From Deltaproteobacteria bacterium (lineage in GTDB: Bacteria > Desulfobacterota > Desulfobacteria > Desulfobacterales > Desulfobacteraceae): a DNA stretch of 64,000 bases. This document shows, one piece after another, positions 25,240-41,257 of this stretch (positions within the stretch are counted from its first letter, which is position 1; each line of letters opens with the position of its first letter). The stretch spans positions 1 through 64,000 of the forward strand of contig JAQIBP010000021.1 of the NCBI GenBank assembly GCA_027858995.1, read 5' to 3'. The notes beneath the pieces were generated by a model, which saw nothing but the letters and a program-made list of their open reading frames with translations, was not told the DNA's origin and made no database searches. The translations under genes and the position numbers were made by a program.

Positions 25240-27647
25240 GTCTTAATCCCTTCTTAAATCAGGTCATTTCTTTCTCAGTACAAAGTAACCGGTTATGACT
25301 ACGGCTTAAGGTCTTAATCCCTTCTTAAATCAGGTCATTTCTTTCCCGATGCTGAAGGCTGGTGAAACAGAAAGAAAATACTGTCTTAATCCCTTCTTAA
25401 ATCAGGTCATTTCTTTCCTTAGCTATCCTTCATTCAATGCCCACAATATTTTATAGGTCTTAATCCCTTCTTAAATCAGGTCATTTCTTTCGAAAGATTA
25501 TCACAAGAAACAGAGCAATATGATAGTCTTAATCCCTTCTTAAATCAGGTCATTTCTTTCGTCATATATCTGACGTGTATCGGTCTTGCCATACGGGTGT
25601 CTTAATCCCTTCTTAAATCAGGTCATTTCTTTCCAACGTCTGTTCCGTACCATTCACCCATGGCTGATTCCGGTCTTAATCCCTTCTTAAATCAGGTCAT
25701 TTCTTTCCCAAAAGAGGGGTATCATGCACAAATATAATATGTCTTAATCCCTTCTTAAATCAGGTCATTTCTTTCTATATGACCTATCGAGGTATTGAGA
25801 ATTTCTTTGGGTCTTAATCCCTTCTTAAATCAGGTCATTTCTTTCCTTTTCAAGTGCATGTATTAGTTGGTTTGACTTATATCCCGTCTTAATCCCTTCT
25901 TAAATCAGGTCATTTCTTTCTTAAAAAACTTAAATGTAAGAGGTGTGAATATGAAGTCTTAATCCCTTCTTAAATCAGGTCATTTCTTTCCTGGGAAATG
26001 CAAATCTGGAAAATGCAAATCTGAATGGGGCGTCTTAATCCCTTCTTAAATCAGGTCATTTCTTTCCCGATCCTTGCAAGAGATGAGTTTAATGCTGGAT
26101 ATATTTGTCTTAATCCCTTCTTAAATCAGGTCATTTCTTTCAACTGACTGGCATGTGTCACAATTACAAGGTTTAGGTCTGGTCTTAATCCCTTCTTAAA
26201 TCAGGTCATTTCTTTCCTAAAGCACTGAGTCTGTTAAATGGATTAACACCAGAACAAGTCTTAATCCCTTCTTAAATCAGGTCATTTCTTTCCCTATAAA
26301 GGGAGAATAAAATGGACAACATCATTACGTCTTAATCCCTTCTTAAATCAGGTCATTTCTTTCAATTTCTTAATACTAATACCAGCTATTTTATTTGGGT
26401 CTTAATCCCTTCTTAAATCAGGTCATTTCTTTCCAACTTGAGACGGTTCAACAATTGAACCAACAGGTTTGTCTTAATCCCTTCTTAAATCAGGTCATTT
26501 CTTTCTGACTTTAATAGGCAAGATCCGGCGGTTGGATCATTTGTCTTAATCCCTTCTTAAATCAGGTCATTTCTTTCCCAAGAAAAAGAAACCAGCGAAT
26601 GGGAGTTGTATGAGGTCTTAATCCCTTCTTAAATCAGGTCATTTCTTTCGAGCAAAAAAGCAAAAAAAGTAGCTGATAGGTTGAGTGTGTCTTAATCCCT
26701 TCTTAAATCAGGTCATTTCTTTCACAATCAAATCCATGCAAGTATCAGTTTTTGGAAACGTGTCTTAATCCCTTCTTAAATCAGGTCATTTCTTTCCCAG
26801 GGATTGATGACGATACAATCAAGACCATGCAAGTGTCTTAATCCCTTCTTAAATCAGGTCATTTCTTTCAAAGTTAAATTTGTTATAGCCGTAATCAGTG
26901 ATGGTCTTAATCCCTTCTTAAATCAGGTCATTTCTTTCTTGCAGTCCGTTCAACAATTGAACCAACAGGTTTCAGTCTTAATCCCTTCTTAAATCAGGTC
27001 ATTTCTTTCATTAAAAAATGCAGTTTGCTTCACCAAAACCTTGGGTCTTAATCCCTTCTTAAATCAGGTCATTTCTTTCCCATAATCAGTGATGATGGAT
27101 ACGATGTATCATACCGTCTTAATCCCTTCTTAAATCAGGTCATTTCTTTCCAAGAATTTTATACAGAATTGGAAGCAAAAGAAGTCTTAATCCCTTCTTA
27201 AATCAGGTCATTTCTTTCCAAAAGCCTTGTCCAGGTTGTAGTAAAACAATAGATAATTGGTCTTAATCCCTTCTTAAATCAGGTCATTTCTTTCATCGAA
27301 TAACTGCGTGTGTTTACAAAAGTTACAAAAGCGTCTTAATCCCTTCTTAAATCAGGTCATTTCTTTCAATGGATTAACACCAGAACAAATGGCAAGAGTT
27401 ATTGCCGTCTTAATCCCTTCTTAAATCAGGTCATTTCTTTCAACTATGATAAAAGTGCAGATATAACAAGGATAAGGTCTTAATCCCTTCTTAAATCAGG
27501 TCATTTCTTTCAGGAATGAAAAAACACAATAAGAAAAAACAAGAGTCTTAATCCCTTCTTAAATCAGGTCATTTCTTTCCCAAAATGGATGTGTGAAGTG
27601 GGAGCAATTCTTGTCTTAATCCCTTCTTAAATCAGGTCATTTCTTTC
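25240..27647 (-). CRISPR. CRISPR array, 34 repeats of 35 bp, 33 spacers
   Basis: Thirty-four apparently identical 35-bp repeats (first 25240-25274, last 27613-27647) with spacers of 33-41 bp, counted by hand. On the + strand the repeat begins GTCTTAATCCCTTC and ends CATTTCTTTC. Read on the minus strand it ends in ATTAAGAC, which resembles the 8-nt 5' handle of type III crRNAs (compare AUUGAAAC). I therefore infer minus-strand transcription from the leader at 27648-27863, in the same direction as the cas genes, making the high-coordinate spacers the newest. No degenerate terminal repeat was seen at either end. Several spacers overlap each other's targets (see findings). Confidence 0.98.
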
Positions 27648-27863
27648 AGCTGCAATTTAATAATGAATGATTTTCAATGGTTATAGTATGATAAATGCGA
27701 GCCTTGATTAAATTTATCATTTTTTCCCTTAACACCCCCTTTAATTAAATATAATGTATTGTTTTTGTTATAAATGCGAACCATATATCAAGTTTGTCTG
27801 TTTTATCCTTTAATTCCAAGATAATATAATATTTCAAAATTAAATACCACAGGTTCGCAAATT
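27648..27863 (-). promoter_or_regulatory. CRISPR leader
   Basis: A 216-bp AT-rich non-coding stretch between cas2 and the first repeat on the transcribed strand. It contains ATAAATGCGAGCC (27691-27703), a near-identical ATAAATGCGAACC (27770-27782) about 79 bp away, and an inverted GGTTCGCA (27852-27859). These may be binding sites for Cas1-Cas2, an integration host factor or the array promoter. Confidence 0.7.
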
Positions 27864-28142
27864 TTATAAAATATAATACTCTTCATCAGGATCAATGAGA
27901 AAACCCTGACCTATAAGTTCTGTTCTTGTAGTGCATTTACGGCACAAAGGAAAGTATTTTACACCATCTTCAGCCGGCTCTATTGTATTATCAATCTGAA
28001 ATTTCATCTGTTTGAATACTGCTGGAGTCAAAGAGACCTCAAATATTGATTTTTGAACCCGTTGCCCAAAATCCTGCATAATCCTCGCAACTCTTCTCAA
28101 TCTTTTTGGATTGGCAATATCATATGTCACAAGCATGTCCAT
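27864..28142 (-). CDS. cas2: CRISPR-associated Cas2, second copy
   Basis: A 92-residue Cas2 with the ferredoxin-like fold: MLVTYDIANPKRLRRV with the metal-site Asp, RVQKSIFEV, and a C-terminal CRKCTTRTELIGQG. Cas2 dimers bridge two Cas1 dimers in spacer integration. This copy lies 1 bp after the other cas2 and next to the leader. Confidence 0.93.
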   Translation of the reverse strand: MDMLVTYDIANPKRLRRVARIMQDFGQRVQKSIFEVSLTPAVFKQMKFQIDNTIEPAEDGVKYFPLCRKCTTRTELIGQGFLIDPDEEYYIL

Positions 28143-28143
28143 A

Positions 28144-28419
28144 TTAAACTATCTGATATGTAAGATTAGTAACTTTCATACCCTGTCCTGACAGCATCAC
28201 TTTATTTATACATCTGGAGCATATTTTATAAATTCTTACAGAATCTTTACCAAGATCAAGAGAGGTTTTACAGTAATTACGAATCTTTTTTAATCCCTCA
28301 CTATCCATGTCACACTCAAAAACTGATTTTTGTGTATTAATTCCAAATTCCTTTAAAAACCTGTGAATTCTTTTTAATCGTTTTGGATCTGTAATATCAT
28401 ATGTAATGAGAATGATCAT
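28144..28419 (-). CDS. cas2: CRISPR-associated Cas2, first copy
   Basis: A 91-residue Cas2: ILITYDITDPKRLKRI, INTQKSVFEC and CSRCINKVMLSGQG. It is homologous to, but clearly diverged from, the following cas2 gene; both keep the YDI Asp and the CxxC region. Its start overlaps the cas1 stop by 4 bp, implying coupled translation. Two non-identical Cas2 proteins could form a heterodimer. Confidence 0.93.
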   Translation of the reverse strand: MIILITYDITDPKRLKRIHRFLKEFGINTQKSVFECDMDSEGLKKIRNYCKTSLDLGKDSVRIYKICSRCINKVMLSGQGMKVTNLTYQIV

Positions 28420-29561
28420 TTTAATAAAATCGGCTGGTACTGCTCAATTTCTCCTTCAATGATTTTTCTGTAATGTTTTGCCTGATAAAAAATTGCATCA
28501 TTATAACTAAATGTAGTATCAGCAGGGGGATAATAAAAACTGGTGGTTAATTTTTTTTCAAAAGCATCTATTACCCGTTTAAAAGCAGCACTTTTGAGTC
28601 TGACCGGATATCTGCCGGAAGCAAGGTCTTTAAAAGGGTTTGCCTCCATTCTCTGTTCAGGTATATCAAAACACTCCATATCAGAATTCTGCATTGTTAT
28701 CATGCCTATGGGATCTTTTGACACATCCGGTATATACGGTTTTTCAGCACTTTTCCCTTGTGGCGGATTGATTTGGAAATCATCACTTTTGAGTATTTTT
28801 AGATTAAAAAGTGATATTGTCAGTGTATCAACAATTATTGATCGAAATTCTTCCATTAAATCAAGAACAAGCGAGTATCGACCATAATCAATTGTATGCA
28901 GAAATCCAGGGTAGGGGTTTAAGCCAGCTGTTCTAACTCCTGCATATACCTTGTTTAATAAGAATGTATATAGCAATGATAATACTGCGTTTACAGGGTC
29001 AGTGGGCGGTCTTCTAATCCGTTTTTTAAAACCTATATTATCAATAAAACCCTGCTTTAATCCCTGGAAATAGATGGCACTCCCTCTTCCCTCATAGCCT
29101 CGAACTTTATCTATACTTGTAGTGTTTTCAAGTTTATGCAGCAAAGAGAGAATCTGTTTGGCTTTATTTCCTGCATCATGGTGTTTTCTGCTGCGTTTAA
29201 TCCGCTTTAAAAATGTTGCCATATTGGAAAGTTTACCTGATATAATGCTTTTTGCCATTTGCAGACCAAATCGCTTATCATCAAGCAGCAGGAACTGTTT
29301 TTTATGCAGAAATACATTTTTAGATTCAGGCGGGTTTATTCTCCCAAGGTATCTGCCGGTTTTTGTAAGATATACAGTATCAATATTTTTTCTCATGAGC
29401 TGGCACAAAGCACCATGAGTGACTTCTATATTCCCGAACAATAGAAGCTGTTTGAGTTTATAGGTGAACAGTGTGTGATAAGTGTTCCCGCCTTTTTTAG
29501 CCAGCAGATGCTGCCCCTCTTTTACTATGCGTACTCCTTGAGTCCTGATATAAACAACCAT
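28416..29561 (-). CDS. cas1: CRISPR integrase Cas1
   Basis: Cas1 (381 residues) catalyses spacer integration. The metal ligands fit Glu in GYEGRGSAIYF (about 157), His in PYPGFLHTIDYGR (about 220) and Asp in LVLDLMEEFR (about 233). It is longer than the usual ~330 residues because of an inserted stretch of roughly 60 residues after the Asp block (about 258-320, containing INPPQGKSAEKPYIPD). No reverse-transcriptase domain is fused. It is the first gene of cas1-cas2-cas2. Confidence 0.95.
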   Translation of the reverse strand: MVVYIRTQGVRIVKEGQHLLAKKGGNTYHTLFTYKLKQLLLFGNIEVTHGALCQLMRKNIDTVYLTKTGRYLGRINPPESKNVFLHKKQFLLLDDKRFGLQMAKSIISGKLSNMATFLKRIKRSRKHHDAGNKAKQILSLLHKLENTTSIDKVRGYEGRGSAIYFQGLKQGFIDNIGFKKRIRRPPTDPVNAVLSLLYTFLLNKVYAGVRTAGLNPYPGFLHTIDYGRYSLVLDLMEEFRSIIVDTLTISLFNLKILKSDDFQINPPQGKSAEKPYIPDVSKDPIGMITMQNSDMECFDIPEQRMEANPFKDLASGRYPVRLKSAAFKRVIDAFEKKLTTSFYYPPADTTFSYNDAIFYQAKHYRKIIEGEIEQYQPILLK

Positions 29562-29659: not shown

Positions 29660-30997
29660 TTATTGTATTGATATATTTTTTTCTACCTCGACAATATAAT
29701 CTAAAAGGTTGATCTCCAGGGTTTTTTCTCTTGCTGGATTATTATTAAAGCCACAATGATTTATATCATTTCTTAAATTGGATAGATTACGATAGACCTT
29801 TATGAGAGCAGAATTATTTTTATATAAATCAATAAACTTATAAGTTAGGCTTTTATTTCTAATAGATGGTTGCTTCCACTGTTCTTCCGGTAATTTTTTT
29901 GACAATATAGTCACCGCCTGGTTTGCGATTGTTCTTTTTTTGTTTTGATGTTTAAAATCATTTGGATCCTCACCAATTCTATGGACAAAATAGGATATTA
30001 ATATTTCCTGTAATATCGTATACCCCTGCTGTACCAGATTGTGTTCAAGGCACCATCGTGCAGACTGAATACCATCAGTTACAATATTTTTATTAAAAGG
30101 CTCCATCTGCTTATTGATTTTTTCAAGTAAAGGTTTCAAAGGCTTATTTAAAGGCTCATTAAATTTCACTTTTTTGCAGGCATGAAGATTGTTTTTTAAT
30201 TTTTCTGCATTCATTGGGATATCACGACCCCTGCAGCTTGAAAGAGCTTTTGTAAATATATCCAGATTTTTGGCAAAATTTATAATTGTCTTTTGAGATC
30301 TGTCCTTGCCATTTGTCCTTGATAAGATTGTATTAGCTGATTTTGCAGCAAGCAGACTGACTGTCTTTGCATTACCACTTGTTAAAAACTGGTCAATTCC
30401 ATTTGTCCACTCCATAAGCTGATTAAAAGAACTTAAATCATGTATGGGAACGACCCTTTTTTCCAAAGCCATCTTTTCAATCTTGCTGATATTTCCTAAC
30501 GCTTCCATTGCTCCATAATACAACCCTTCCAGGGTAGCATCTTTCATTACTTTGGCATAATTTATTATGACAACAGCAAGCATGGGGATTGATCTGAAAG
30601 CATGTGTTATATCAAATATTATTTCATCATCCTGACCTATCTCACCAAACACTATTGAAAAAATTTCCCAGATTTCAGTTTCCGTTTTCCCATCTGGAAT
30701 ATTTATCTGTTTAATGGAGAAATCATATTGTAAATCAGAAAGGCGTTTTTCAAGACCGGTCCTTTCAAGGTTTTTACCCGTATTCCTATCTTTTTGACCA
30801 TGATTTTTCCAATTATTTTTAAAAGCCTGCCGGGTTGTAAATATTGCTATTTTGTCTCTTTTTGACCAGTCCCGGCATTTTAATCTTATGGTCGCTTCCT
30901 GGACAAAACGAACATCTTTTATAATATTTTTATGATATTCATAGGAACATTTAAGGTAATCACTGGTTCCAAGAAAAGATATGAATACTTTTGCCAT
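29660..30997 (-). CDS. csx2: Csx2/TM1812-family CARF-HEPN ancillary ribonuclease
   Basis: A 445-residue type III ancillary effector. The N-terminal CARF domain starts KVFISFLGTSDYLKCSY and has the TM1812 signature FDITHAFRSIPM near residue 140. The C-terminal region carries LRNDINHCGF (about 408-417), an intact R-x4-H HEPN active site. In characterised relatives, cyclic oligoadenylate made by Cas10 binds CARF and switches on HEPN to cut RNA indiscriminately. Cmr2 here keeps GGDD, so this pathway is plausible. It sits between vapC and cas1. Confidence 0.87.
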   Translation of the reverse strand: MAKVFISFLGTSDYLKCSYEYHKNIIKDVRFVQEATIRLKCRDWSKRDKIAIFTTRQAFKNNWKNHGQKDRNTGKNLERTGLEKRLSDLQYDFSIKQINIPDGKTETEIWEIFSIVFGEIGQDDEIIFDITHAFRSIPMLAVVIINYAKVMKDATLEGLYYGAMEALGNISKIEKMALEKRVVPIHDLSSFNQLMEWTNGIDQFLTSGNAKTVSLLAAKSANTILSRTNGKDRSQKTIINFAKNLDIFTKALSSCRGRDIPMNAEKLKNNLHACKKVKFNEPLNKPLKPLLEKINKQMEPFNKNIVTDGIQSARWCLEHNLVQQGYTILQEILISYFVHRIGEDPNDFKHQNKKRTIANQAVTILSKKLPEEQWKQPSIRNKSLTYKFIDLYKNNSALIKVYRNLSNLRNDINHCGFNNNPAREKTLEINLLDYIVEVEKNISIQ

Positions 30998-31002
30998 GAA
31001 AT

Positions 31003-31392
31003 TTACCCCTGTTTTGTATACGCTGGTTCTAAATTCTTTATCATGGGATAGTGTTTGATATTTAATGTCTTTAACTCAGCATTTTCTGCAAAAGCAGTGG
31101 CTGCTATGATTGCATCCGCAAGCCCTATGCCATGGGAGTTGCCGTAATCACGTTTATAAAGTCCGCCGGTTTGTGCAATCTCTGCGCTTACAGGAATGAC
31201 ACGAAACAGTGAGATAAAATTTTTCAAAACTGCTTGTTCTGCATCTCCTTTTACGCCGGCATACAGCTCTGCAACAGCAATTGATGAAATCAATACCATG
31301 GAAGAGTTTTTGTTTATAAAAGAGACAGCTTTACCATGCCCCCTGAGAAAATCAATTAAAACATCTGTATCAATGAGAATTGGTTCTGCCAT
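31003..31392 (-). CDS. vapC: VapC-like PIN-domain toxin
   Basis: A 129-residue PIN ribonuclease with acidic residues in LIDTDVLIDFL, AVAELYAG and GLADAIIAATA, the usual VapC active-site set. The ATG at 31392 comes 2 nt after the antitoxin stop; an overlapping upstream ATG at 31410 would add six residues but lies inside the antitoxin gene. It forms a VapBC module inserted in the cas locus in the same direction, 5 bp upstream of csx2. Confidence 0.88.
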   Translation of the reverse strand: MAEPILIDTDVLIDFLRGHGKAVSFINKNSSMVLISSIAVAELYAGVKGDAEQAVLKNFISLFRVIPVSAEIAQTGGLYKRDYGNSHGIGLADAIIAATAFAENAELKTLNIKHYPMIKNLEPAYTKQG

Positions 31393-31394
31393 AC

Positions 31395-31628
31395 TTATTG
31401 CCTGTCCCATTCAGAGCGGATTGCCTTGAAATCCGGAAGATTTCTGCGATCTTTCCAGAGTCCGGCAGCTTCAGATAATATAGCTTCCCGCCTTTTTCTT
31501 CCTTTCTGGTTAATAAGCAGATCAACAGCTTCCCGAATGAGTTCACTCTGCTTTTTTCCAAAAGTGTTGGAAAGAGCAGCTATCTCAGTTCGCTGTTTAT
31601 CAGTCAGATATATTTGTGTTCGTATCAT
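31395..31628 (-). CDS. vapB: ribbon-helix-helix antitoxin of the VapBC module
   Basis: A 77-residue protein with an RHH N terminus (MIRTQIYLTDKQRTEIAALS...SELIREAVDLLI) and a C-terminal toxin-binding tail ending in EWDRQ. An AGGAGG ribosome-binding site precedes it. It is expected to bind its own promoter (31629-31741) and neutralise the PIN toxin. Confidence 0.85.
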   Translation of the reverse strand: MIRTQIYLTDKQRTEIAALSNTFGKKQSELIREAVDLLINQKGRKRREAILSEAAGLWKDRRNLPDFKAIRSEWDRQ

Positions 31629-31741: not shown

Positions 31742-33160
31742 TTATAATGTCTTGCTGATCTTTTCAGGTAATCTTTTTATATTGCTGCATAAATCTGGGT
31801 AGTTCTTTTTATGCTTTTTCAGTATCTTTTTTTTCTCTTTTTTTAAGCAGAAACCACGTTTAATAATATTTTGAAGTTTTCCAATAATTTTGGAATTAAG
31901 CTGTTTTTCTGATATTGGAGGGGAGATAGGTTTTGGTTCTCCCTTGGGTTGATTTCCTATAATTTTACAAATAATTTCATAATATTTGGTAAAACCACCT
32001 CTTTTCTCTTTCTTTATTTTTGCTTCAAAAGCGTTTGCTATCCCGATATGATCAGCCATAAATTTTTTATCGTCATCGTTTTTGAAATTACGCCATTCAG
32101 CAAAGAGAGACTCAACCATTCCCGAGGCAACTATACTGATATCTGCTTTTTCAAGTTTATTCACCCGTTCTATAAACTTATTTATCTCCCGTTCCTTTTT
32201 TGCTTTATCCGTCAGCTGATCACCAAAATATTTGTTAAAATGAGTTTCAAGTATTGCCGGAATACCCTCAGATATTTTGAATCGCCCATATCCTGTAGCA
32301 GTTTTTGCACCAAACCCTTCTTGCTCAAGTGCGTTTTTTACTGCCGTTGATAGCTGTACTTTATGCTTTGCCGATTTAGAATCAAGCATGAATCTGAAAA
32401 CAAATTGAGCCCCGGGTGCAATGGTCAAAAATTTTACAGGCAGAGGATCTTGATAATCACCTGGAGGTTTGTTTTTATCACCATAATAGTCTGAATAATG
32501 GGGATTAATGATATCAGCTTTTATTTGTGGTGTGTTAACAGAATAGGCATCAAGGAAGAAAATGCTCCCCCTGAGTGTGTCAGTAATTTTATGGATTTTG
32601 TCTTTTATAGTACCACCAAAAAAAAGCGGGATGTGTGTATCTTTATCTGTCTCATTTAGGGACCCTTTTTCTACAAATTTATCCGTAAAATCGCCGTTGT
32701 CATCAAATAAAAGCTGCTTTGAATGGGAAAAACGAATCAAACCTTTAATGCCGGAGGCTGGAATATAGGGAATGCCAAGGGTATGGTCCAATACGATTGA
32801 AGTTTCAGTTGGATGAGTTTCTCCTAATCCTGTTATCATAGGTGATTTTAAGATTCCAGTAAAAGTCAAGCAATGAAAATCCTGTTGTTCCATACAATTC
32901 ATATAATGCATCTGCAGGCAGTGTTTTTTTACGAGAAGAGTTTCAATATTTTTATTTTTTTGAATCTTATCATATATATTTTTATAAAATTCACTTCTTT
33001 TATCTTTATTATTTTTATTGTCACAGGAACACCAGGCATCTTTATCCGCCTGTCCGATATTGGGTATTAGTTGATTATACCAGAGTCCGAAATTTCCTGA
33101 GGAAAAGCTATTACTATCTGCAAGAGCACGAAGGTCTTTATGAAATGGATAAAAAGTCAT
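31742..33160 (-). CDS. cmr6: type III-B RAMP subunit Cmr6
   Basis: Cmr6, a Cas7-group RAMP capping the 3' end of the crRNA in the Cmr complex. Family blocks: TGLGETHPTETSIVLDHTLGIPYIPASGIKG (the basic/Gly RAMP loop) and EGFGAKTATGYGRFKI. At 472 residues it is long: after the RAMP core there are about 150 extra residues, ending in a very Lys-rich tail (KKEKKKILKKHKK). The ATG at 33160 has GGAGGA 5-6 nt upstream, so it is preferred over the ATG at 33172, which overlaps that site. Confidence 0.9.
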   Translation of the reverse strand: MTFYPFHKDLRALADSNSFSSGNFGLWYNQLIPNIGQADKDAWCSCDNKNNKDKRSEFYKNIYDKIQKNKNIETLLVKKHCLQMHYMNCMEQQDFHCLTFTGILKSPMITGLGETHPTETSIVLDHTLGIPYIPASGIKGLIRFSHSKQLLFDDNGDFTDKFVEKGSLNETDKDTHIPLFFGGTIKDKIHKITDTLRGSIFFLDAYSVNTPQIKADIINPHYSDYYGDKNKPPGDYQDPLPVKFLTIAPGAQFVFRFMLDSKSAKHKVQLSTAVKNALEQEGFGAKTATGYGRFKISEGIPAILETHFNKYFGDQLTDKAKKEREINKFIERVNKLEKADISIVASGMVESLFAEWRNFKNDDDKKFMADHIGIANAFEAKIKKEKRGGFTKYYEIICKIIGNQPKGEPKPISPPISEKQLNSKIIGKLQNIIKRGFCLKKEKKKILKKHKKNYPDLCSNIKRLPEKISKTL

Positions 33161-33172
33161 TTTGTCCTCCAT

Positions 33173-33538
33173 TTATTTGTCTTCAATAAAAGCATTGGCA
33201 TACCTTTTAACCCATTCAAGAAGATACAATGTTTCCTGTTGGGCGCTAAAGTATTCGTCCTGGGAAGATTCTGAAATTTTTTCAAGAAATTCTTGTATTG
33301 ACTTAGATTGGAACATGCTGTTATCTTTATTAAACCAATCCCTTACTATGGTCATTAAAGCAATATGTTCATCTTTTCCCTTGGCAGCCCAGAAAGCAAG
33401 AGCCTGGCCAAAACCATTTTGCAAAATCATTGAAGGCGCTCCTGCCGAAAATGGTTTTAATGATTTTAGATTTATGTTCTCCATTACTTTCTTTAATGCA
33501 AATTCAGATCGCACCTGCCCAAGGGTTCTCATTTTCAT
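33173..33538 (-). CDS. cmr5: type III-B subunit Cmr5
   Basis: Cmr5, the small helical subunit of the Cmr complex (121 residues). It matches in size and in MRTLGQVRSEFAL, LPLK-like and FGQALAFWAAKGK segments typical of Cmr5. The ATG at 33538 overlaps the cmr4 stop (ATGA); the longer frame from 33565 runs inside cmr4. Confidence 0.85.
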   Translation of the reverse strand: MKMRTLGQVRSEFALKKVMENINLKSLKPFSAGAPSMILQNGFGQALAFWAAKGKDEHIALMTIVRDWFNKDNSMFQSKSIQEFLEKISESSQDEYFSAQQETLYLLEWVKRYANAFIEDK

Positions 33539-34410
33539 GATCCACCTTCCTTTCCGATCAGCCATCTTAATTTACACACCCCTCTGCCAAGAGTCTCATC
33601 ACCGCCTATCTGCATAAAATCCCTTATGTTTGTTTCAATAAAATTCTTTATCATGGATGCTTGTATTTTATTATTATGCCTGCTGTGGTGCACAACAATG
33701 TATAATAACGTATCCGAAGGCAGTAATTCTTCATATCGCAACGCTCCGGGTTGTGCTGTCCCTTTTTCATGATCAATTTTAATTTGGGTCTGTATCTCTG
33801 TACAAGTGGACACGATATGACCAAACAATTTGTCAGAAACTAATACAAGACGTTCAATATCCTTAAAATTATCAGCTAAAAACGGAACTTGCACAGTTTC
33901 TTCAGCCACCTGCACCACTGCATCTTCCATAATTATTTTTTTTTCTTTACACTGCCAGTTCAATAATATTGCATCATCATTATTTTTTATAACAGGATGG
34001 TTAATCTCTTCAGAAAAACCAGCCATTAAAAGATCATTTTGAAGACGTTTTAAAACTGCCGGGCAAGTTACTGTTATAAAAGGAGCTATGTTTGATCTCA
34101 CGGGAAAAACCAAAAGTTTAGCATCAGAGACAGAAATGGAGCCTGGAATATCCTGATCAAATCCCGGGTAGTCTTTATCTTGTTTGTCAGAGCCAAAAAT
34201 CTGGTTTATGGATTCTATATCTTTTTGGGCATAATTTCTAAAATGGGCCCGCATTGCACCTTTGACAGCAGAAGCCTGGACATGGGGCCAGTTGGTATGA
34301 CGTTCCCGCTGTATTGGCAAGTCAACTGCCCCGGTTGACATACCGCTTCCGGCATGAACAGGTGATATCGCATAAAGACTTGCTATAGAAACGATCTCTT
34401 TTTTATGCAT
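33535..34410 (-). CDS. cmr4: type III-B backbone subunit Cmr4
   Basis: Cmr4 (Cas7), the repeated backbone subunit that cuts target RNA every 6 nt. The block VHAGSGMSTGAVDLPIQRERHTN carries the candidate catalytic Asp (about residue 30), followed by the RAMP loop QASAVKGAMR. It ends with DETLGRGVCKLRW, the usual C-terminal Gly-rich strand. It starts 2 bp after cmr3. Confidence 0.93.
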   Translation of the reverse strand: MHKKEIVSIASLYAISPVHAGSGMSTGAVDLPIQRERHTNWPHVQASAVKGAMRAHFRNYAQKDIESINQIFGSDKQDKDYPGFDQDIPGSISVSDAKLLVFPVRSNIAPFITVTCPAVLKRLQNDLLMAGFSEEINHPVIKNNDDAILLNWQCKEKKIIMEDAVVQVAEETVQVPFLADNFKDIERLVLVSDKLFGHIVSTCTEIQTQIKIDHEKGTAQPGALRYEELLPSDTLLYIVVHHSRHNNKIQASMIKNFIETNIRDFMQIGGDETLGRGVCKLRWLIGKEGGS

Positions 34411-34412
34411 AA

Positions 34413-35435
34413 TTATTCTCCCTTTATTAATATTTGATTGTTATTTATTCTTTTTGTGAAAACAGAGCCTGCCGGATAAAAAGCACAAGAGGGCTTGTGG
34501 AAACCCTTTTTCATATCCCAGCCGCTTATATATTGAATTTTTCCTGTTGCAACAAGGTCGCTTGTATCAAAGTTTTTACAAAGCAAAGCTGAAAGACTCA
34601 TATATAGCTCAGCCCCATTATTTTTATCATGAAAATTAATATCAATGGTTTCATAATACCCTATCCTTTGTTCACCGCCCAGTCGTAAAATTCCCTTTTG
34701 ATTAAAAGGGAATTCAACTTTACTGCTCACACCAAATACAAGTTCCACATCAAGTTTCATCCTGATATGATTAAATGAATACAAATGGGATTCCCTTATT
34801 TTTCGATTCCGCTCCAATGCTATCCCAGTTCTTGGCTCACTATCAAAAAAATCGGAGAGCGGTCGAACTCTAATTGTCTTGTTTGTTGAATAAAAATCAT
34901 TTACTTCAATCCAGTTTCCGCCCATATTTGAAAGTTCACCTTCTCTTCCTTTTGCAATATACAACTTTTGGTTTTTTGATGTTTTGACATAGGGAGAATC
35001 AACAGGGTTGCCTTTATATACAGATATTGTTATCTCTTTATCTATATCCATGGTGGTTGCACATGTTATTTCCTGTCTGTTGCGCCTCATTTTTATTGCT
35101 TTATCCATATCATTTTTTTCCATATACCAGATATATGGTGCTGGGATGAAAGTTTTGCCTTCCATGGAAAAGAATGGTCCAAGTATATCAAAAGGCGCAT
35201 CATCACCCGCCTTCCCTATGGCAGAAAGAATTGTTGGATTATCAAATGATTTTTGTGCGTATTCTTTAAAACCTACACCTTGCTGACGTAGAACAGCAGT
35301 CCTGACAGCTCCGGAAATTGTTGCAACGTGGGGAGGGAATATAAATTCTGATGTATGATTCTCCCCCATGACCATGGGAGTTGATCCTTTAAAGAAAAAA
35401 GTATCAACAGGTTTGATTTTATACCATTTATTCAT
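34413..35435 (-). CDS. cmr3: type III-B subunit Cmr3 (Cas5 group)
   Basis: Cmr3 (340 residues) binds the 5' handle of the crRNA together with Cmr2. YKIKPVDTFFFKGSTPMVMGE and FPPHVATISGAVRTAVL are Cmr3/Cas5-type blocks; LRLGGEQRIGYY is the C-terminal Gly-rich segment. The ATG at 35435 lies 8 bp inside the end of cmr2 and has GGAGGTG upstream, so it is preferred over 35468. Confidence 0.92.
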   Translation of the reverse strand: MNKWYKIKPVDTFFFKGSTPMVMGENHTSEFIFPPHVATISGAVRTAVLRQQGVGFKEYAQKSFDNPTILSAIGKAGDDAPFDILGPFFSMEGKTFIPAPYIWYMEKNDMDKAIKMRRNRQEITCATTMDIDKEITISVYKGNPVDSPYVKTSKNQKLYIAKGREGELSNMGGNWIEVNDFYSTNKTIRVRPLSDFFDSEPRTGIALERNRKIRESHLYSFNHIRMKLDVELVFGVSSKVEFPFNQKGILRLGGEQRIGYYETIDINFHDKNNGAELYMSLSALLCKNFDTSDLVATGKIQYISGWDMKKGFHKPSCAFYPAGSVFTKRINNNQILIKGE

Positions 35436-38196
35436 GGGTTTCACCTCCAAAAAGAAATGATCCCACAATCAATCCCTCAGGTTTGAATCTGGGCTTTTGA
35501 TTCTTTTCTTTTTCAATAATGACATCAGCTATTTTTTGGGCAAACTCATTTTTAATAGATTTGCCAAGTGATGATCTTTCCAACTGTTTTTGAATAAACA
35601 TTGAAAGCAGTACATTCTCTTTGTTTTTTTCTGACTTGATAATTGCCTCAATACCTTCCCGGAAGTATTCAAGCCTGTAAACAAGGGATTTGGACACAGC
35701 TTCTATGTCTTTCACAAATCCACTGGAAGCTTTCCCAATGGTTGTAAAAGATTCCCAAACAGGATTATCCCATTTTCTAACGAAAAATCTTGAACCTCCG
35801 GACCTTTTTTTCAATTCAATGGCACATGCATTTTTTTCAGCGTTTTCCTTTGCCTGAGTATCTAAAAGTTGATGCGCCCGGGATATCATTTGAGAAAGAT
35901 TTTCTTTATGATGGCAAAGCAAAATACCTGCTGAAATAGAAATGTTTTCACCCATACCAAGATTGATAGAAAGTTTTCCTTTTTCAATCTGCCATATACC
36001 ACTGACTGGTGTAATTGCACCATTATCTAAACTTATCATCTGGAAAGCTGAATTGTAATATTGTTGTATCTGCCTTGCAGCTTTCATGACAGTATCCACG
36101 GGCAAAACTGCACAAACATCATCCCCACCTGCATATATCAGTCTGCCATGGTTGTTTTTTACAATGGATGCAACACCATATATGGCAAAATCTCCCAGTG
36201 ATTCAGATATCGCTGCGTGAATTGAAGGAGTCAGCAAACGCCGAGGATATTTTTTGAAAATTATATCCCAGTTGTTCTTGTACTTTGGATCAAAAGACTT
36301 CTTTTGTAAACGTTGATAAATATCAGGATGCAAAACTGACTGCCATGTTGATGCAAGCGTACTTCCATTTACAAGTTTACCAATGTTATCACCATCCATC
36401 ATGAGGATGGCATAATACTTGTCTTTGTCCGATGGTTCTTTATCTCTGCACTTACCAAGGATATCAGCAATGTTTCCATGCAGATTCTGGGCAAGTTTCT
36501 GCTTTTCTTTTTGATCTTTTATTCCATGCCTTTTGAAGTAGTTGAACAGACTGATTTCTGTTGTGGAAGGAAAATAGTCGTTTCTATGAAACATATGATA
36601 TAAAACATGTTTATAGCTGTTTTGGGATTGGGATTTTTCAAATATTCTGTACAAAACTCTTTTCATGAGGCAAATAGTACAAAGTTTTTCAGAATCTGTC
36701 TTGAAATCCGCCGCTCTTTGCCATGCTTTTTTAAAGTTATCCCAGAATTGCCTTGTCTTTTTCTTATATTCACCGGCTTTCATTGAAGCTGAATTTGCTT
36801 CTAAATGAAGGACTTCAAACTCACCGCATAAATGACATTTTTCCCCGTTTTCTTCTGCCCTGCTTGATGTTTTAATGGTTTTTGAAGCAGCCAGAACAGA
36901 CTGAACCATGGAGTGAGTCACAGAATAAAACACACCTTTACCAGATTTGTCATAATACTTTTCATCTTTGATTATTTCATTAAATATATCTAACAGCCCT
37001 GACTGGTTTAAATAAAAATTGTCTGGTAAAAATTTCATCATTTCTTTTTTTGAATCAGCTTCGCCTGAAAGCATTTTTACCGATGCCCAGTCAAATTCCC
37101 AGTATTTATGAGATTGTCTTTTAAACATTGAATGAATATGTTTTTTGTTGGTTTCATTTTTTAGAATATCTTTGATCAGATTTTCTCCATTGTCACAAAG
37201 TTTAATCCACTCCTGTGTAATATGCTCTTTAATCAAGCAGCCAATATCTTCTGCCTGGGATTGTGGCACCAGAAAAAGAAATTTATTAGGGAAAGAAGCT
37301 ATATCTTTTGAATTGTCAAAGGTTTTAATATCATCCATCCTCCATTGATTTTTAAGATATTCGTTCATCAGTGGTTGATCAATAAGTGAGGGGTAAAGCA
37401 CATGATCGGGGCCAAGATTTTCACTCACCCATCGTATCCCTTCAAAAGCAAGCCAGGATAAAATAATAGAGCCTGTCCATAAATCTCTGAGTTTTCTTGC
37501 CTTGCTGATAAAGGACTGAACCGGTGTTATACTAAACACCATCATTCCTATATCATCATTTTGACCTGATAGTTCCATACATGAATAAAAAGCTGAAGCC
37601 AGAGAGTTATGTTGCCAGATAGAGTGGTCTGGAAATCTCGAATCGGCGGGTATTCTGTGCCAGAAACCTCCCAGTGAAGATATATTGTTCTCAGCCAGAA
37701 TAAAGCGCAGTCTTAGATGAGTATAAAAAAATCTTGCCTTTGCAAAAAGGTCTGGCTCACCCATAAATTTTCCAGAATAACCGGTTTGATCATCTGTTTT
37801 ACCAATATATTTTTTTATAGCTTCAAGCAGGTTCCCGTAAATTGTTTTAGCAGCCTCATCTGCTGGTATTGTACTTAAATTTTTTGGCAACCCTATTTCA
37901 AGTGCATCTGCCTGTGAAGTCGGATGGGTTAGAACAGGGTTTCCTGCATAGTTCACAGCCCCGTTTTTATCATCATCCTTGTTGAAAGATGGAATTTGTC
38001 CTCTCTCAAAACCGGCTGCCATGGCATCAGCAGTTTTCCAAAATTTATCATTAGACATATCAAGTCCGAATTGTTCAATCAATTCAGCAGCCCTTGATTC
38101 ATGTCCCGGAATTTGAAACACCTTATCAAACGGATCATGCATAAATGCAGCAAATTTATTATTCCAGTATTCTGTGTCTGGTGTTGTGAATGCCAT
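35428..38196 (-). CDS. cmr2: type III-B Cas10 subunit Cmr2
   Basis: Cmr2/Cas10 (922 residues), the signature large subunit. The N terminus has the HD-domain start FMHDPFDKVFQIPGHESRA. A Zn ribbon is formed by CHLCGEFE...CTICLMKR (about 450-515). The palm domains carry ILMMDGDNIGK and the intact cyclase motif YAGGDDVCAVLP (about 686-697). GGDD predicts cyclic oligoadenylate synthesis upon target RNA binding. Its start overlaps the cmr1 stop by 1 bp (TAATG). Confidence 0.96.
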   Translation of the reverse strand: MAFTTPDTEYWNNKFAAFMHDPFDKVFQIPGHESRAAELIEQFGLDMSNDKFWKTADAMAAGFERGQIPSFNKDDDKNGAVNYAGNPVLTHPTSQADALEIGLPKNLSTIPADEAAKTIYGNLLEAIKKYIGKTDDQTGYSGKFMGEPDLFAKARFFYTHLRLRFILAENNISSLGGFWHRIPADSRFPDHSIWQHNSLASAFYSCMELSGQNDDIGMMVFSITPVQSFISKARKLRDLWTGSIILSWLAFEGIRWVSENLGPDHVLYPSLIDQPLMNEYLKNQWRMDDIKTFDNSKDIASFPNKFLFLVPQSQAEDIGCLIKEHITQEWIKLCDNGENLIKDILKNETNKKHIHSMFKRQSHKYWEFDWASVKMLSGEADSKKEMMKFLPDNFYLNQSGLLDIFNEIIKDEKYYDKSGKGVFYSVTHSMVQSVLAASKTIKTSSRAEENGEKCHLCGEFEVLHLEANSASMKAGEYKKKTRQFWDNFKKAWQRAADFKTDSEKLCTICLMKRVLYRIFEKSQSQNSYKHVLYHMFHRNDYFPSTTEISLFNYFKRHGIKDQKEKQKLAQNLHGNIADILGKCRDKEPSDKDKYYAILMMDGDNIGKLVNGSTLASTWQSVLHPDIYQRLQKKSFDPKYKNNWDIIFKKYPRRLLTPSIHAAISESLGDFAIYGVASIVKNNHGRLIYAGGDDVCAVLPVDTVMKAARQIQQYYNSAFQMISLDNGAITPVSGIWQIEKGKLSINLGMGENISISAGILLCHHKENLSQMISRAHQLLDTQAKENAEKNACAIELKKRSGGSRFFVRKWDNPVWESFTTIGKASSGFVKDIEAVSKSLVYRLEYFREGIEAIIKSEKNKENVLLSMFIQKQLERSSLGKSIKNEFAQKIADVIIEKEKNQKPRFKPEGLIVGSFLFGGETHE

Positions 38197-39182
38197 TATA
38201 CCCCCCTGGAAGCCGAAATTTCTTTATCGAAATTTAAAGCTTTTTTTATGCTTATATTCATATCACTGCATGCCTTGTCATACTCTCCAATTTTTTCATT
38301 TTTATAATATTGGTAGGGCAAAAATAAAATCTGTCCTCTGAATCTGCCACTTTCCATTTTGTGTACATGGAGGAAATAAGGTTTTGCATGACGGTCATTG
38401 ATTGGATTTCCAGCCTGTGCATCAATTGGAGAAGCAATTAATTGTCTTCGGGTATCCTGATGTCTATTTTCCAGAGATAATTTGGCATTTCTATAAGCCA
38501 CACCTATATCAAACATCGCCTTATTCCATGAAGTCTGCTTTCTGAAAAGAAAAAGTATGGAATTTTTTGAAAAACTGGTAAATTTTTTTCTTGAACCTTT
38601 TTTTATAGCATTAAATTCTTCTTCAGAATTTTGATTGTTATATTCTTTTATTTCAATGCTTCCAAAACCATTTCTGCAACGTGATCCAAAGCCACCAAAT
38701 TGATGAATCATTCGTAGAGAATTCCATATTTCTTGCTTTTTTTTAGAACAATTTAATTGCAAACTAAAGGAATTTTCTGGAGAATAATATCGTCTGATAT
38801 ATTTTCTTTCTCGTTGATCGAAAAGACCATATGCCAAATATTCAATAATACTGATTCGATACGTTTTGCCCTCCACAGGAATTAACTCGCCTCTTGCAAT
38901 ATTCTCCTCTGATGGTTTACAGTTCTCAGGGATATCCAAAGAAAGTACTACATCTGATTTATGGTCAGTATCACCAAAAATTGCTGCCTCATTTTTTTTC
39001 ATCTGTTTAATATCATCACTTCCATAAAGTGCTCTCCACCAGAATCGCATCATACCTTTTATAGTAGGTGCTCTTAGCTCTGCTGAAACGCCATCAGCTC
39101 CTCCGGAAAACAGAGGGGTGACAATTTCTATATTGAATCTATGAGTGGACATGTTCTTAAATTTTTTAACAGGAAATACCAT
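38196..39182 (-). CDS. cmr1: type III-B subunit Cmr1
   Basis: Cmr1 (328 residues), a Cas7-group RAMP of the Cmr complex. The N-terminal NIEIVTPLFSGGADG and the RAPTIKGMMRFWWRAL block are characteristic of Cmr1; GGFGSRCRNGFGSIEI is the Gly-rich RAMP loop. The ATG at 39182 has GGAGGA upstream, the same arrangement as for cmr6; the ATG at 39194 overlaps that site. Confidence 0.93.
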   Translation of the reverse strand: MVFPVKKFKNMSTHRFNIEIVTPLFSGGADGVSAELRAPTIKGMMRFWWRALYGSDDIKQMKKNEAAIFGDTDHKSDVVLSLDIPENCKPSEENIARGELIPVEGKTYRISIIEYLAYGLFDQRERKYIRRYYSPENSFSLQLNCSKKKQEIWNSLRMIHQFGGFGSRCRNGFGSIEIKEYNNQNSEEEFNAIKKGSRKKFTSFSKNSILFLFRKQTSWNKAMFDIGVAYRNAKLSLENRHQDTRRQLIASPIDAQAGNPINDRHAKPYFLHVHKMESGRFRGQILFLPYQYYKNEKIGEYDKACSDMNISIKKALNFDKEISASRGV

Positions 39183-39197
39183 GTTGTCCTCCATATT

Positions 39198-40322
39198 TTA
39201 TAAAACAATTTCAAGTTTTGATTTATCCATTTTTATCCCATACCGTGTATCCGGTCTCAAACCTGTTGAAGCGATTTCAATCTCTTCTAATGCCGGGCTT
39301 CCAAATCTGGTTTCAAGGCTTTTTTTGATTTTGCTTTTAAATGACCGCAAATTATCCTTATCAAGATTGATGATTCCTTCTCCCGACATTTCAGTGATCT
39401 GTCTCGCACCCCTTAATTTTTTGTATATTTTTGTTATTTCAGGCTGTTTTTCCAGTATTTCAAAGCTCTGTAAAAAACAGTCTGTGCAGTTGCCGCAGGT
39501 TTTTATCTCTTTCGGGCAATTTTTTTTCTGCATGGCAAAAAAACCATATAAAGCAAGATGAGCCGGCATTAAATCAAGTTCTATATTTTTATAGATGATT
39601 TTCTTTAAGGTAAAATCAATTCTGAGAGTTGGTTTTAAATCCTGAACAAGGGAGAGCATTAAAGTCCCGGGATCTTTGACCTCTTTTAAATCATTGTGTG
39701 TAAGATAATTTCTAATGGATATAAATGGTATATTTACAAGATTTATTTTTGCATATTTTGTGTTTTTGTAAAATGGTTCTCCATTTTTATTTTTAAGTTT
39801 GACACTGGTATTAATTTTTGGAGGATAATAAAAATTCCTGCTGCTTTCAAACTCAGGCGATACAAGCACATGGCACAATCTGTCCTGGGGCCTGCCATAT
39901 AGCTGAGCTGCAAGGGTGAGGCAGGAACTCATTGTTTTTCTGCCGCCTGCCACTGAAAAATATATGGATGTCTGAGCCATGTTTGTGAGCTTAAAAGTAA
40001 TTTCCAGGCATAATTTTAATAGATATCTGTTTTCATCTTCACTGACAAGATCGGAAATTGTATTGCCGTGCTCATCACAAATTACATGGATTGAATCATG
40101 GTTAAAGAGTATTGAGTTCCTGGGGATATTATATTCTTCAAAGAATTTATCAAAGTTACCATCCTGTCCTGCAAGAAGAGTGGAATAGATTTTTTCTTTA
40201 CCCTGATTCGTTGTTATCACTATAATTTCATCTATATTTTTTCCAGACTTAAAGATGGCATAAAGTGTTTCAGTAATAACCTGCGGGCTTAATCCGACAA
40301 CAGCAAGAAGGATGTTTTTCAT
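39198..40322 (-). CDS. NE0113-family CARF protein (Csm6-type/ring-nuclease-like)
   Basis: A 374-residue CRISPR ancillary protein starting with NILLAVVGLSPQVITETLYAI, the signature of the NE0113 family (TIGR02584). SVAGGRKTMSSCL is the second CARF block, near residue 128. The C-terminal half has a Cys cluster (CPKEIKTCGNCTDC, about 271-284) and no convincing HEPN domain. Members are annotated as CRISPR ring nucleases or Csm6-like sensors, so it may degrade or sense cyclic oligoadenylate. Its start overlaps the cas6 stop by 4 bp. Confidence 0.8.
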   Translation of the reverse strand: MKNILLAVVGLSPQVITETLYAIFKSGKNIDEIIVITTNQGKEKIYSTLLAGQDGNFDKFFEEYNIPRNSILFNHDSIHVICDEHGNTISDLVSEDENRYLLKLCLEITFKLTNMAQTSIYFSVAGGRKTMSSCLTLAAQLYGRPQDRLCHVLVSPEFESSRNFYYPPKINTSVKLKNKNGEPFYKNTKYAKINLVNIPFISIRNYLTHNDLKEVKDPGTLMLSLVQDLKPTLRIDFTLKKIIYKNIELDLMPAHLALYGFFAMQKKNCPKEIKTCGNCTDCFLQSFEILEKQPEITKIYKKLRGARQITEMSGEGIINLDKDNLRSFKSKIKKSLETRFGSPALEEIEIASTGLRPDTRYGIKMDKSKLEIVL

Positions 40323-41257
40323 GGAGTAACCTCATAATGAAATTTACCAAGTCCGAATGCTGTCTGCTTACCTATATGTGTTTTGCTGCAAAAATCAAGC
40401 AACGGAAGATAGTTTTCAAACTTTCCATTGTATGTAATGCTTCCTGTTATCCCACCCATGAGCATTTTTTCTTTCTGCCTTGATGAGTATCTTTTCCAGT
40501 CAAACCATTGAAGGCTGTTCCCCTTGATTTCAACAGCTTGTGCTTCTTTTACTAGACTTGAATAATCAATATCAGGTTCACCTTCACCATAACACTCCAA
40601 AAGAGTTGAAATTCTTCTTAACATTGCCCGTACAAGTACATGGAAAGGAAGATCTGCTTTCAGGTGGTTTTTAAATTTTATTCTCAAGGGTGTTTCAAAC
40701 GTTAACATTAAAGTTCCGTTGGTTTTTTTTGATTTTAAATTTTCAGGGAAAAGTAATTCATTCTTGTTTTGGAATTTGATTTTTTGCTCAGATGATTTAT
40801 AAATGACCTGCCCGGCTGCCTTAACTTTTATAAGTTTAAATTTGCCGCGCTGCCCATTGATTTTTTTCCCCACTCCAATTTTCCCCATTTGGTTCAAAGC
40901 ATAAATAAAATAGGGGATATTATTATTCATGTTTCCGAATATAAGAATTTTAAAATTAAAAAGATCACCTGTTTTAAATTTTGTCTGATTTGTTAAGGGT
41001 GGTTCAATTACAAAAGGGTGTGGCACAAAGGAAAGTTTTGATTCAGGGCTTGCAGAAACTGTTTTATCGGTCTCAAATACCAGTGCATATATGCAGTTAT
41101 TGTTCAACAGGCAGGAGTTGCATTCATTCTGTTTTAAAGCGCATACAACTTTTTTTAATGCTATACCAAAAACACCTCTGAAAGTGGAACCTTTATAATA
41201 CGGCAGCTCAGCATTGTTTTTGAATTTACAGGAAAATTTATATTCACCATACTCCAT
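40319..41257 (-). CDS. cas6: CRISPR pre-crRNA endoribonuclease Cas6
   Basis: A 312-residue Cas6-family RAMP expected to cut the repeat transcript and leave the 8-nt 5' handle. GSTFRGVFGIALKKVVCAL, a Cys group (CNSCLLNNNC), FETPLRIKFKN and the C-terminal Gly-rich KTHIGKQTAFGLGKFHYE mark the family. It is the first gene of the effector operon (cas6, NE0113-type, cmr1-6). Confidence 0.87.
   Translation of the reverse strand: MEYGEYKFSCKFKNNAELPYYKGSTFRGVFGIALKKVVCALKQNECNSCLLNNNCIYALVFETDKTVSASPESKLSFVPHPFVIEPPLTNQTKFKTGDLFNFKILIFGNMNNNIPYFIYALNQMGKIGVGKKINGQRGKFKLIKVKAAGQVIYKSSEQKIKFQNKNELLFPENLKSKKTNGTLMLTFETPLRIKFKNHLKADLPFHVLVRAMLRRISTLLECYGEGEPDIDYSSLVKEAQAVEIKGNSLQWFDWKRYSSRQKEKMLMGGITGSITYNGKFENYLPLLDFCSKTHIGKQTAFGLGKFHYEVTP

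Follow-up and report, generated by a model that had tools for sequence, protein, structure and literature searches.

The window analysed here is the whole 64,000-nucleotide stretch of DNA, and at positions 25240–27647 it carries a CRISPR array that adjoins what is, by its predicted gene content, a complete type III-B (Cmr) operon, free of reverse transcriptase (RT) and equipped with adaptation genes of its own. To the right of the array, on the minus strand, the gene order is Cas2, Cas2, Cas1, Csx1, PIN, Cmr6, Cmr5, Cmr4, Cmr3, Cas10/Cmr2, RAMP, CARF and Cas6. The features are as follows, with the basis of each assignment in brackets.

25240–27647, minus strand: CRISPR array of 34 identical 35-nt repeats and 33 spacers
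27648–27863, minus strand: leader-like gap, A+T-rich (74.5%), separating the array from cas2 (sequence; gene order conserved in related loci)
27864–28142, minus strand: Cas2, paralogue 'Cas2a' (Pfam CRISPR_Cas2, 4.6e-21; in a clade of 49)
28144–28419, minus strand: Cas2, paralogue 'Cas2b' (Pfam CRISPR_Cas2, 1.7e-21; in a clade of 47)
28416–29561, minus strand: Cas1, 381 aa, without RT fusion (Pfam Cas_Cas1, 6.9e-82; PDB relatives)
29660–30997, minus strand: Csx1 (CARF-HEPN) with the R-X4-H motif RNDINH (PADLOC, 9.6e-112; motif)
31003–31410, minus strand: PIN-domain (VapC-like) protein (Pfam PIN, 8.6e-14)
31742–33172, minus strand: Cmr6 (Pfam/PADLOC)
33173–33565, minus strand: Cmr5 (Pfam, 1.2e-26)
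33535–34410, minus strand: Cmr4 (Cas7) (PADLOC, 5.9e-62)
34413–35468, minus strand: Cmr3 (Cas5) (Pfam, 4.9e-31)
35428–38196, minus strand: Cas10/Cmr2 with HD (HDPFDK...GHE) and GGDD motifs (Pfam/PADLOC; motifs)
38196–39194, minus strand: RAMP protein in the Cmr1 position (Pfam RAMPs, 2.1e-21)
39198–40322, minus strand: CARF protein of the Cas_NE0113 family (Pfam, 2.4e-60; PADLOC CARF5)
40319–41257, minus strand: Cas6 (Pfam CRISPR_Cas6, 3.5e-18)

The type III-B assignment is based on a Cas10 palm domain with a GGDD motif, the Cmr1, Cmr3, Cmr4, Cmr5 and Cmr6 subunits in one operon, Cas6 as the predicted crRNA-processing enzyme, and two CARF effectors of predicted cyclic-oligoadenylate signalling, namely Csx1 with its R-X4-H motif and a second CARF protein. 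Within Cas10/Cmr2 the Pfam domains Cmr2_N (9.9e-35) and palm2 (4.3e-31) were detected, and the GGDD motif lies at residue 690. Cmr3 to Cmr6 were identified by Pfam/PADLOC, while the gene in the Cmr1 position matched the general RAMP model only. The HD, GGDD and HEPN motifs of the gene set are intact, and the hallmark of RT-Cas1 systems, an RT fused to or beside Cas1, was not found. The PIN-domain (VapC-like) gene at 31003–31410 was observed to be embedded in the cmr operon, with csx1 on one side and cmr6 on the other, and Cas1 (28416–29561) has about 60 residues (about 264–323) that lack a counterpart in the closest solved Cas1 structure (8d3p).

The spacers of the array are 33–41 nt long, with coordinates matching those given by an earlier reading of the sequence alone (hereafter the sequence-only reading), and the host genome contains no second array carrying the same repeat. 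The repeat has the 3′ end ...GGGATTAAGAC, giving the handle ATTAAGAC, and putative crRNAs from the minus strand would bear the 5′ handle AUUAAGAC; in related repeats the 3′ end is GGGATTGCGAC or GGGATTGAGAC. In all 36 related loci scored, among the matches listed, the repeat and the cas operon point in opposite directions. From the repeat 3′ end ...GGGATTAAGAC, together with this constant polarity relative to the operon, we infer that the crRNAs of the window array are transcribed from the minus strand. The leader-like gap is expected to mark the end with the newest spacers.

Several spacers share sequence with one another, and these are listed below together with one gene-start-like spacer (no strand is assigned to single spacers).

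26217–26257: spacer S14, sharing 21 identical nt with S30 (KALSLLNGLTPEQ)
27368–27406: spacer S30, partner of S14 (NGLTPEQMARVIA)
26434–26470: spacer S17, sharing 25 identical nt with S24 (QLETVQQLNQQV)
26939–26974: spacer S24, partner of S17 (LQSVQQLNQQVS)
26724–26761: spacer S21, 20-nt overlap with the adjacent S22, 2 mismatches (TIKSMQVSVFGN)
26797–26834: spacer S22, partner of S21 (PGIDDDTIKTMQ)
26870–26903: spacer S23, 15-nt overlap with S26, 1 mismatch (KVKFVIAVISD)
27080–27115: spacer S26, partner of S23 (IISDDGYDVSY)
26293–26328: spacer S15, reading GGGAG, a short gap and ATG on the plus strand; gene-start-like

The sequence-only reading had described these four pairs as overlapping in one orientation, and all four were recovered. 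The ungapped overlap scores were 25 for S17/S24, 21 for S14/S30, 15 for S21/S22 and 12.5 for S23/S26, against 10.5 for the best opposite-strand pair among the 33 spacers. In 60 shuffled spacer sets the mean maximum was 10.6 and the largest score 14, with 0.17 pairs scoring at least 12 per set. The first three overlaps therefore exceed chance, while S23/S26 is marginal on DNA alone and could be a chance match. The overlap translations quoted in that reading are correct and lie in one plus-strand frame, and its gene start (26293–26328), CxxC motifs (25921–25955 and 27219–27259) and pentapeptide repeat (25991–26031) hold as translations.

Within the window, the plus strand was purine-rich in 25 spacers against 7 (p=0.002), and a codon model scored 22 of the 33 spacers as positive, giving a sense fraction of 0.92–0.975 with a wide interval (0.63–1.0); a few leader-distal spacers (S5, S6) leaned to the opposite strand. 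The 4:0 ratio of same-strand pairs is not significant (p=0.125), and the window alone, with this ratio and short peptides, is insufficient to establish a strand bias.

A search for protospacers had been suggested as the means of scoring strand. The whole array was compared with phages (best matches about 27 nt at E=3), with plasmids (only other CRISPR arrays and weak chance matches) and with its own genome (best non-self match E=0.18). Across 389 genomes of the order, spacer matches stayed at chance level except for a pentapeptide-repeat match; the spacer at 25991–26031 was 88% identical over 33 nt to a pentapeptide-repeat reading frame of the related locus L039. Degenerate codon patterns for the peptides of the four overlap pairs and two other spacers retrieved no true protospacer from IMG/VR, and two large related arrays and a Mailhella array gave no phage match. 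A small protein with the motif NGLTPEQMA (L010, 4217–4429), 82% identical to S30 over 38 nt, was rejected as a chance or shared-motif match; its contig looks like an enteric prophage. Pentapeptide-repeat-like (AxLxx) spacers were also seen in several arrays (L064, L159, L166), sometimes several per array. As the searches of phages, plasmids, IMG/VR patterns and the host genome produced no true protospacer, strand bias was measured through overlaps, and strand relative to genes was read from codon and start-site signals.

GTDB genomes were scanned for the repeat family, which yielded at least 1,544 unique spacers from at least about 83 arrays, mostly on contigs labelled Deltaproteobacteria/Desulfobacterota; these arrays are partly non-independent, since some share one genome and one (L067) contains a multi-spacer cluster. 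Among the matches listed for the 1,544 spacers, overlaps scoring at least 16 comprised 88 same-strand pairs in 62 clusters and no opposite-strand pair. Clusters with an offset of at least 3 nt were all same-strand (46:0), as were those joining different arrays (13:0), again among the matches listed. When the threshold was lowered to 15, three opposite pairs appeared, all between arrays, as expected near chance level. The absence of discordance in 46 clusters puts the one-orientation fraction at 0.967 or above (95% bound) for recurrently sampled targets only, and the same outcome under a bias of 0.88 has a probability of 2e-5.

The direction of this polarity was read from gene-level signals. 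Among the matches listed, a Shine-Dalgarno sequence followed by a start codon (GGAG-N4-10-ATG) was present on the plus strand of 60 spacers and on the minus strand of 8, and purine-rich plus strands outnumbered the reverse by 1,091 to 387. The family sense fraction was 0.995 (0.955–1.0) with a codon model trained on genes from the loci themselves and 0.95 (0.915–0.98) with a model calibrated on viral genes; recovery on known viral sense fragments was 0.99–1.0. As a control, 671 type I-C spacers from the same phylum were processed identically. Their sense fraction was 0.53 (0.44–0.62), so that the coding-strand bias of the type III family (0.95–0.995) stands out against a DNA-targeting system. 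The control overlaps comprised 16 same-strand and 6 opposite-strand pairs, purine skew was absent, and at an offset of at least 3 nt the ratio was 7:5 compared with 46:0 in the family (Fisher p=0.0002). Enrichment of gene starts as such was not clear (68 of 1,544 spacers against 21 of 671 in the controls). Because the one-strand overlaps, the gene-start motifs and the codon model agree, and the type I-C controls show opposite pairs and a sense fraction of 0.53, there is strong statistical support for the plus strand being the mRNA sense strand, to which the predicted crRNAs would be antisense. The proposal of antisense crRNAs made in the sequence-only reading is supported by the 62:0 clusters and by the Shine-Dalgarno/ATG and codon signals on the plus strand. 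Polarity showed no trend with spacer age (rho=0.0004, n=1,457), leader-distal spacers being as polar as leader-proximal ones; the polarity would therefore have been set at or soon after acquisition, rather than through a gradual loss of non-functional spacers.

The overlaps also carry a record of change in the targets. Of the changed codons, 48% were synonymous, where a null of random changes gives 29%; examples are INFQKRNGVPVP (6/6) and LDREEWAKLR and ENAPVKPEMT (3/3). For the distance test, one pair per spacer was taken and the L067 multi-spacer cluster was removed, leaving 43 pairs. Overlapping spacers lay a median of 3 positions apart compared with 12 expected, and none of 5,000 randomisations was as close. 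The overlap was identical in 16 of 22 pairs within 3 positions but in 6 of 21 more distant pairs (p=0.006), and divergence rose with distance (rho=0.45, p=0.002, 43 pairs). Mismatch spacing gave no significant signal in a mod-3 test, and among independent pairs the more recent spacer of an overlap was not significantly more often the downstream one (27:16, p=0.13). In the window, two pairs differ by 10–15% and one distant pair is identical, a loose fit to the family trend. Since close pairs are mostly identical and distant pairs diverged, the data support a reading in which the arrays record bursts of uptake from one virus, followed by uptake from its drifted relatives, in line with the earlier suggestion that diverging relatives had been sampled repeatedly.

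The adaptation genes show a recurrent arrangement. The order Cas1-Cas2b-Cas2a-array, with two divergent Cas2 proteins, was present in 45 of the 49 related loci in which a Cas2 was called (L061–L177; among the matches listed), and the remaining 4 have a single Cas2, mostly at contig ends. A tree of 96 Cas2 proteins split cleanly into clades of 47 and 49 (support 0.99/0.97), and Asp8 and the CxxC motif are kept in both. No paper on paired Cas2 genes was found in the open-access literature searched. Three single-Cas2 type III arrays of the phylum, a small comparison of 51 spacers, had a sense fraction near 1 (0.79–1.0). A requirement of polarity for two Cas2 proteins is not supported, as single-Cas2 type III arrays seem equally polar.

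The interpretation that we consider probable is that the window holds an RT-free type III-B memory array with antisense crRNAs, whose spacer orientation was fixed by selection at or soon after acquisition. Type III interference requires pairing between crRNA and mRNA, and selection predicts an antisense orientation for that reason. The crRNAs from the minus strand would pair with invader mRNAs, Cmr-crRNA complexes would bind the transcripts, and binding is predicted to activate Cas10 and the CARF effectors. Only transcript-complementary spacers would then protect, cells inserting them that way would survive, and selection would leave the plus strand as mRNA sense in about 95% of spacers or more; that it would act at or soon after acquisition follows from the polarity being independent of spacer age. 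The overlaps would represent repeated uptake from one gene, from the same virus where spacers lie near each other in the array and from diverged relatives where they lie farther apart. The type III-B genes, the overlaps, the one-strand polarity of the family, the plus-strand coding signal and the divergence trend are read directly from sequence; both the activity of Cmr and selection, as opposed to oriented insertion, as the cause are what we infer from these patterns.

Going against this interpretation, the published type III bias (65% on average, 88% in one III-B genus) is lower than that of the family. Selection acting purely should also leave some wrong-way passengers, and almost none are seen; this scarcity leaves room for oriented insertion. 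A Cas1-Cas2-Cas2′ integrase could already give prespacers their functional orientation on insertion, ahead of selection, perhaps through asymmetry of a Cas2 heterodimer or through single-stranded DNA from transcription bubbles. The near-absolute polarity of the family, its independence of spacer age and the two Cas2 paralogues accompanying Cas1 in 45 of 49 related loci would all suit such a mechanism, but the three single-Cas2 arrays are also near 1. Moreover, in the RT-free type III system of Thermus thermophilus, naive uptake draws on both strands and the bias of protective spacers was attributed to selection (Artamonova et al. 2020, PMC7515739), and published data on Streptococcus show an RT-free preference for the coding strand, which is not the functional direction (PMC9048733). 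We regard oriented insertion as somewhat unlikely. Two reasons lead us to favour selection: it has been shown to operate elsewhere, and type III arrays with a single Cas2 seem equally polar. A stronger version, in which Cas1-Cas2b-Cas2a modules would both orient their own insertion and re-acquire beside an existing match in a primed-like burst, leaving arrays strand-pure without selection, is a speculative idea and a good deal more doubtful.

Acquisition from RNA by an RT would also tie spacers to mRNA, an origin that has been proposed for RT-Cas1 systems (PMC9048733). It appears very improbable here: Cas1 is unfused to RT, an RT match was present in 0 of 117 related stretches among the matches listed, and the host's sole RT is on an unlinked contig. 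In Marinomonas mediterranea, moreover, whose RT-Cas1 type III-B system functions only with crRNA antisense to the transcript, naive uptake shows no more than a moderate orientation bias (Silas et al. 2017, PMC5576922). That sole RT match of the host (G000:C157:8995–9573, on a 9.6-kb contig) resembles a group II intron maturase. Of the earlier proposal of strand-selected or transcript-biased acquisition, the strand bias stands; that acquisition itself is transcript-biased does not follow, with no RT in the adaptation module, no protospacer found in the searches above and selection explaining the pattern equally well. Replication strand bias could by itself produce a purine skew, so target base composition or leading-strand skew, not transcription, might set direction, but the start-site motifs (60:8) and the codon signal are gene-level and the type I-C spacers of the same phylum lack the skew, which leaves this account barely credible. 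Least credible is that the shared segments arose by recombination or by duplication within the array, the latter named in the sequence-only reading as a possible refutation. Near-identical spacers (offset 0–2) do occur in a few related arrays; the four window pairs, however, are offset by 3–20 nt with new flanking sequence, and 46 family clusters are likewise offset by at least 3 nt with unrelated flanks; 13 clusters in the family join different arrays.

Type III spacers are already known from published work to be biased towards the coding strand, and the window is a new, strong example, as judged by its sequence family, of this known bias. Among mapped protospacers the bias was 65% on average and 88% in Moraxella III-B, and a PAM was rarely seen for type III clusters that have their own Cas1-Cas2 (Vink et al. 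2021, PMC8482600). The likeness is that the preferred spacer orientation is the one whose crRNA pairs with mRNA; the difference is that the 65% average compares with at least 95% here, in one repeat family and measured without protospacers. Thermus shares with the window family an RT-free type III system and a strong strand bias, but concerns laboratory infection, whereas the family consists of natural arrays that have no age trend and record target drift. Marinomonas mediterranea is alike in being type III-B and differs in its RT-Cas1, as there is no RT here. Among open-access papers, none was found on near-absolute bias in natural RT-free arrays, on a protospacer-free overlap test or on the divergence trend.

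To the question of how spacers come to have the right orientation in RT-free type III systems, the published answer, selection, comes from laboratory infections. The present family indicates that natural arrays are near strand-pure without an age trend, as revealed by comparing overlap pairs on the same and opposite strands. Along the array, the overlaps would in addition trace the drift of viruses, and both measures may be used on any CRISPR collection without known viruses.
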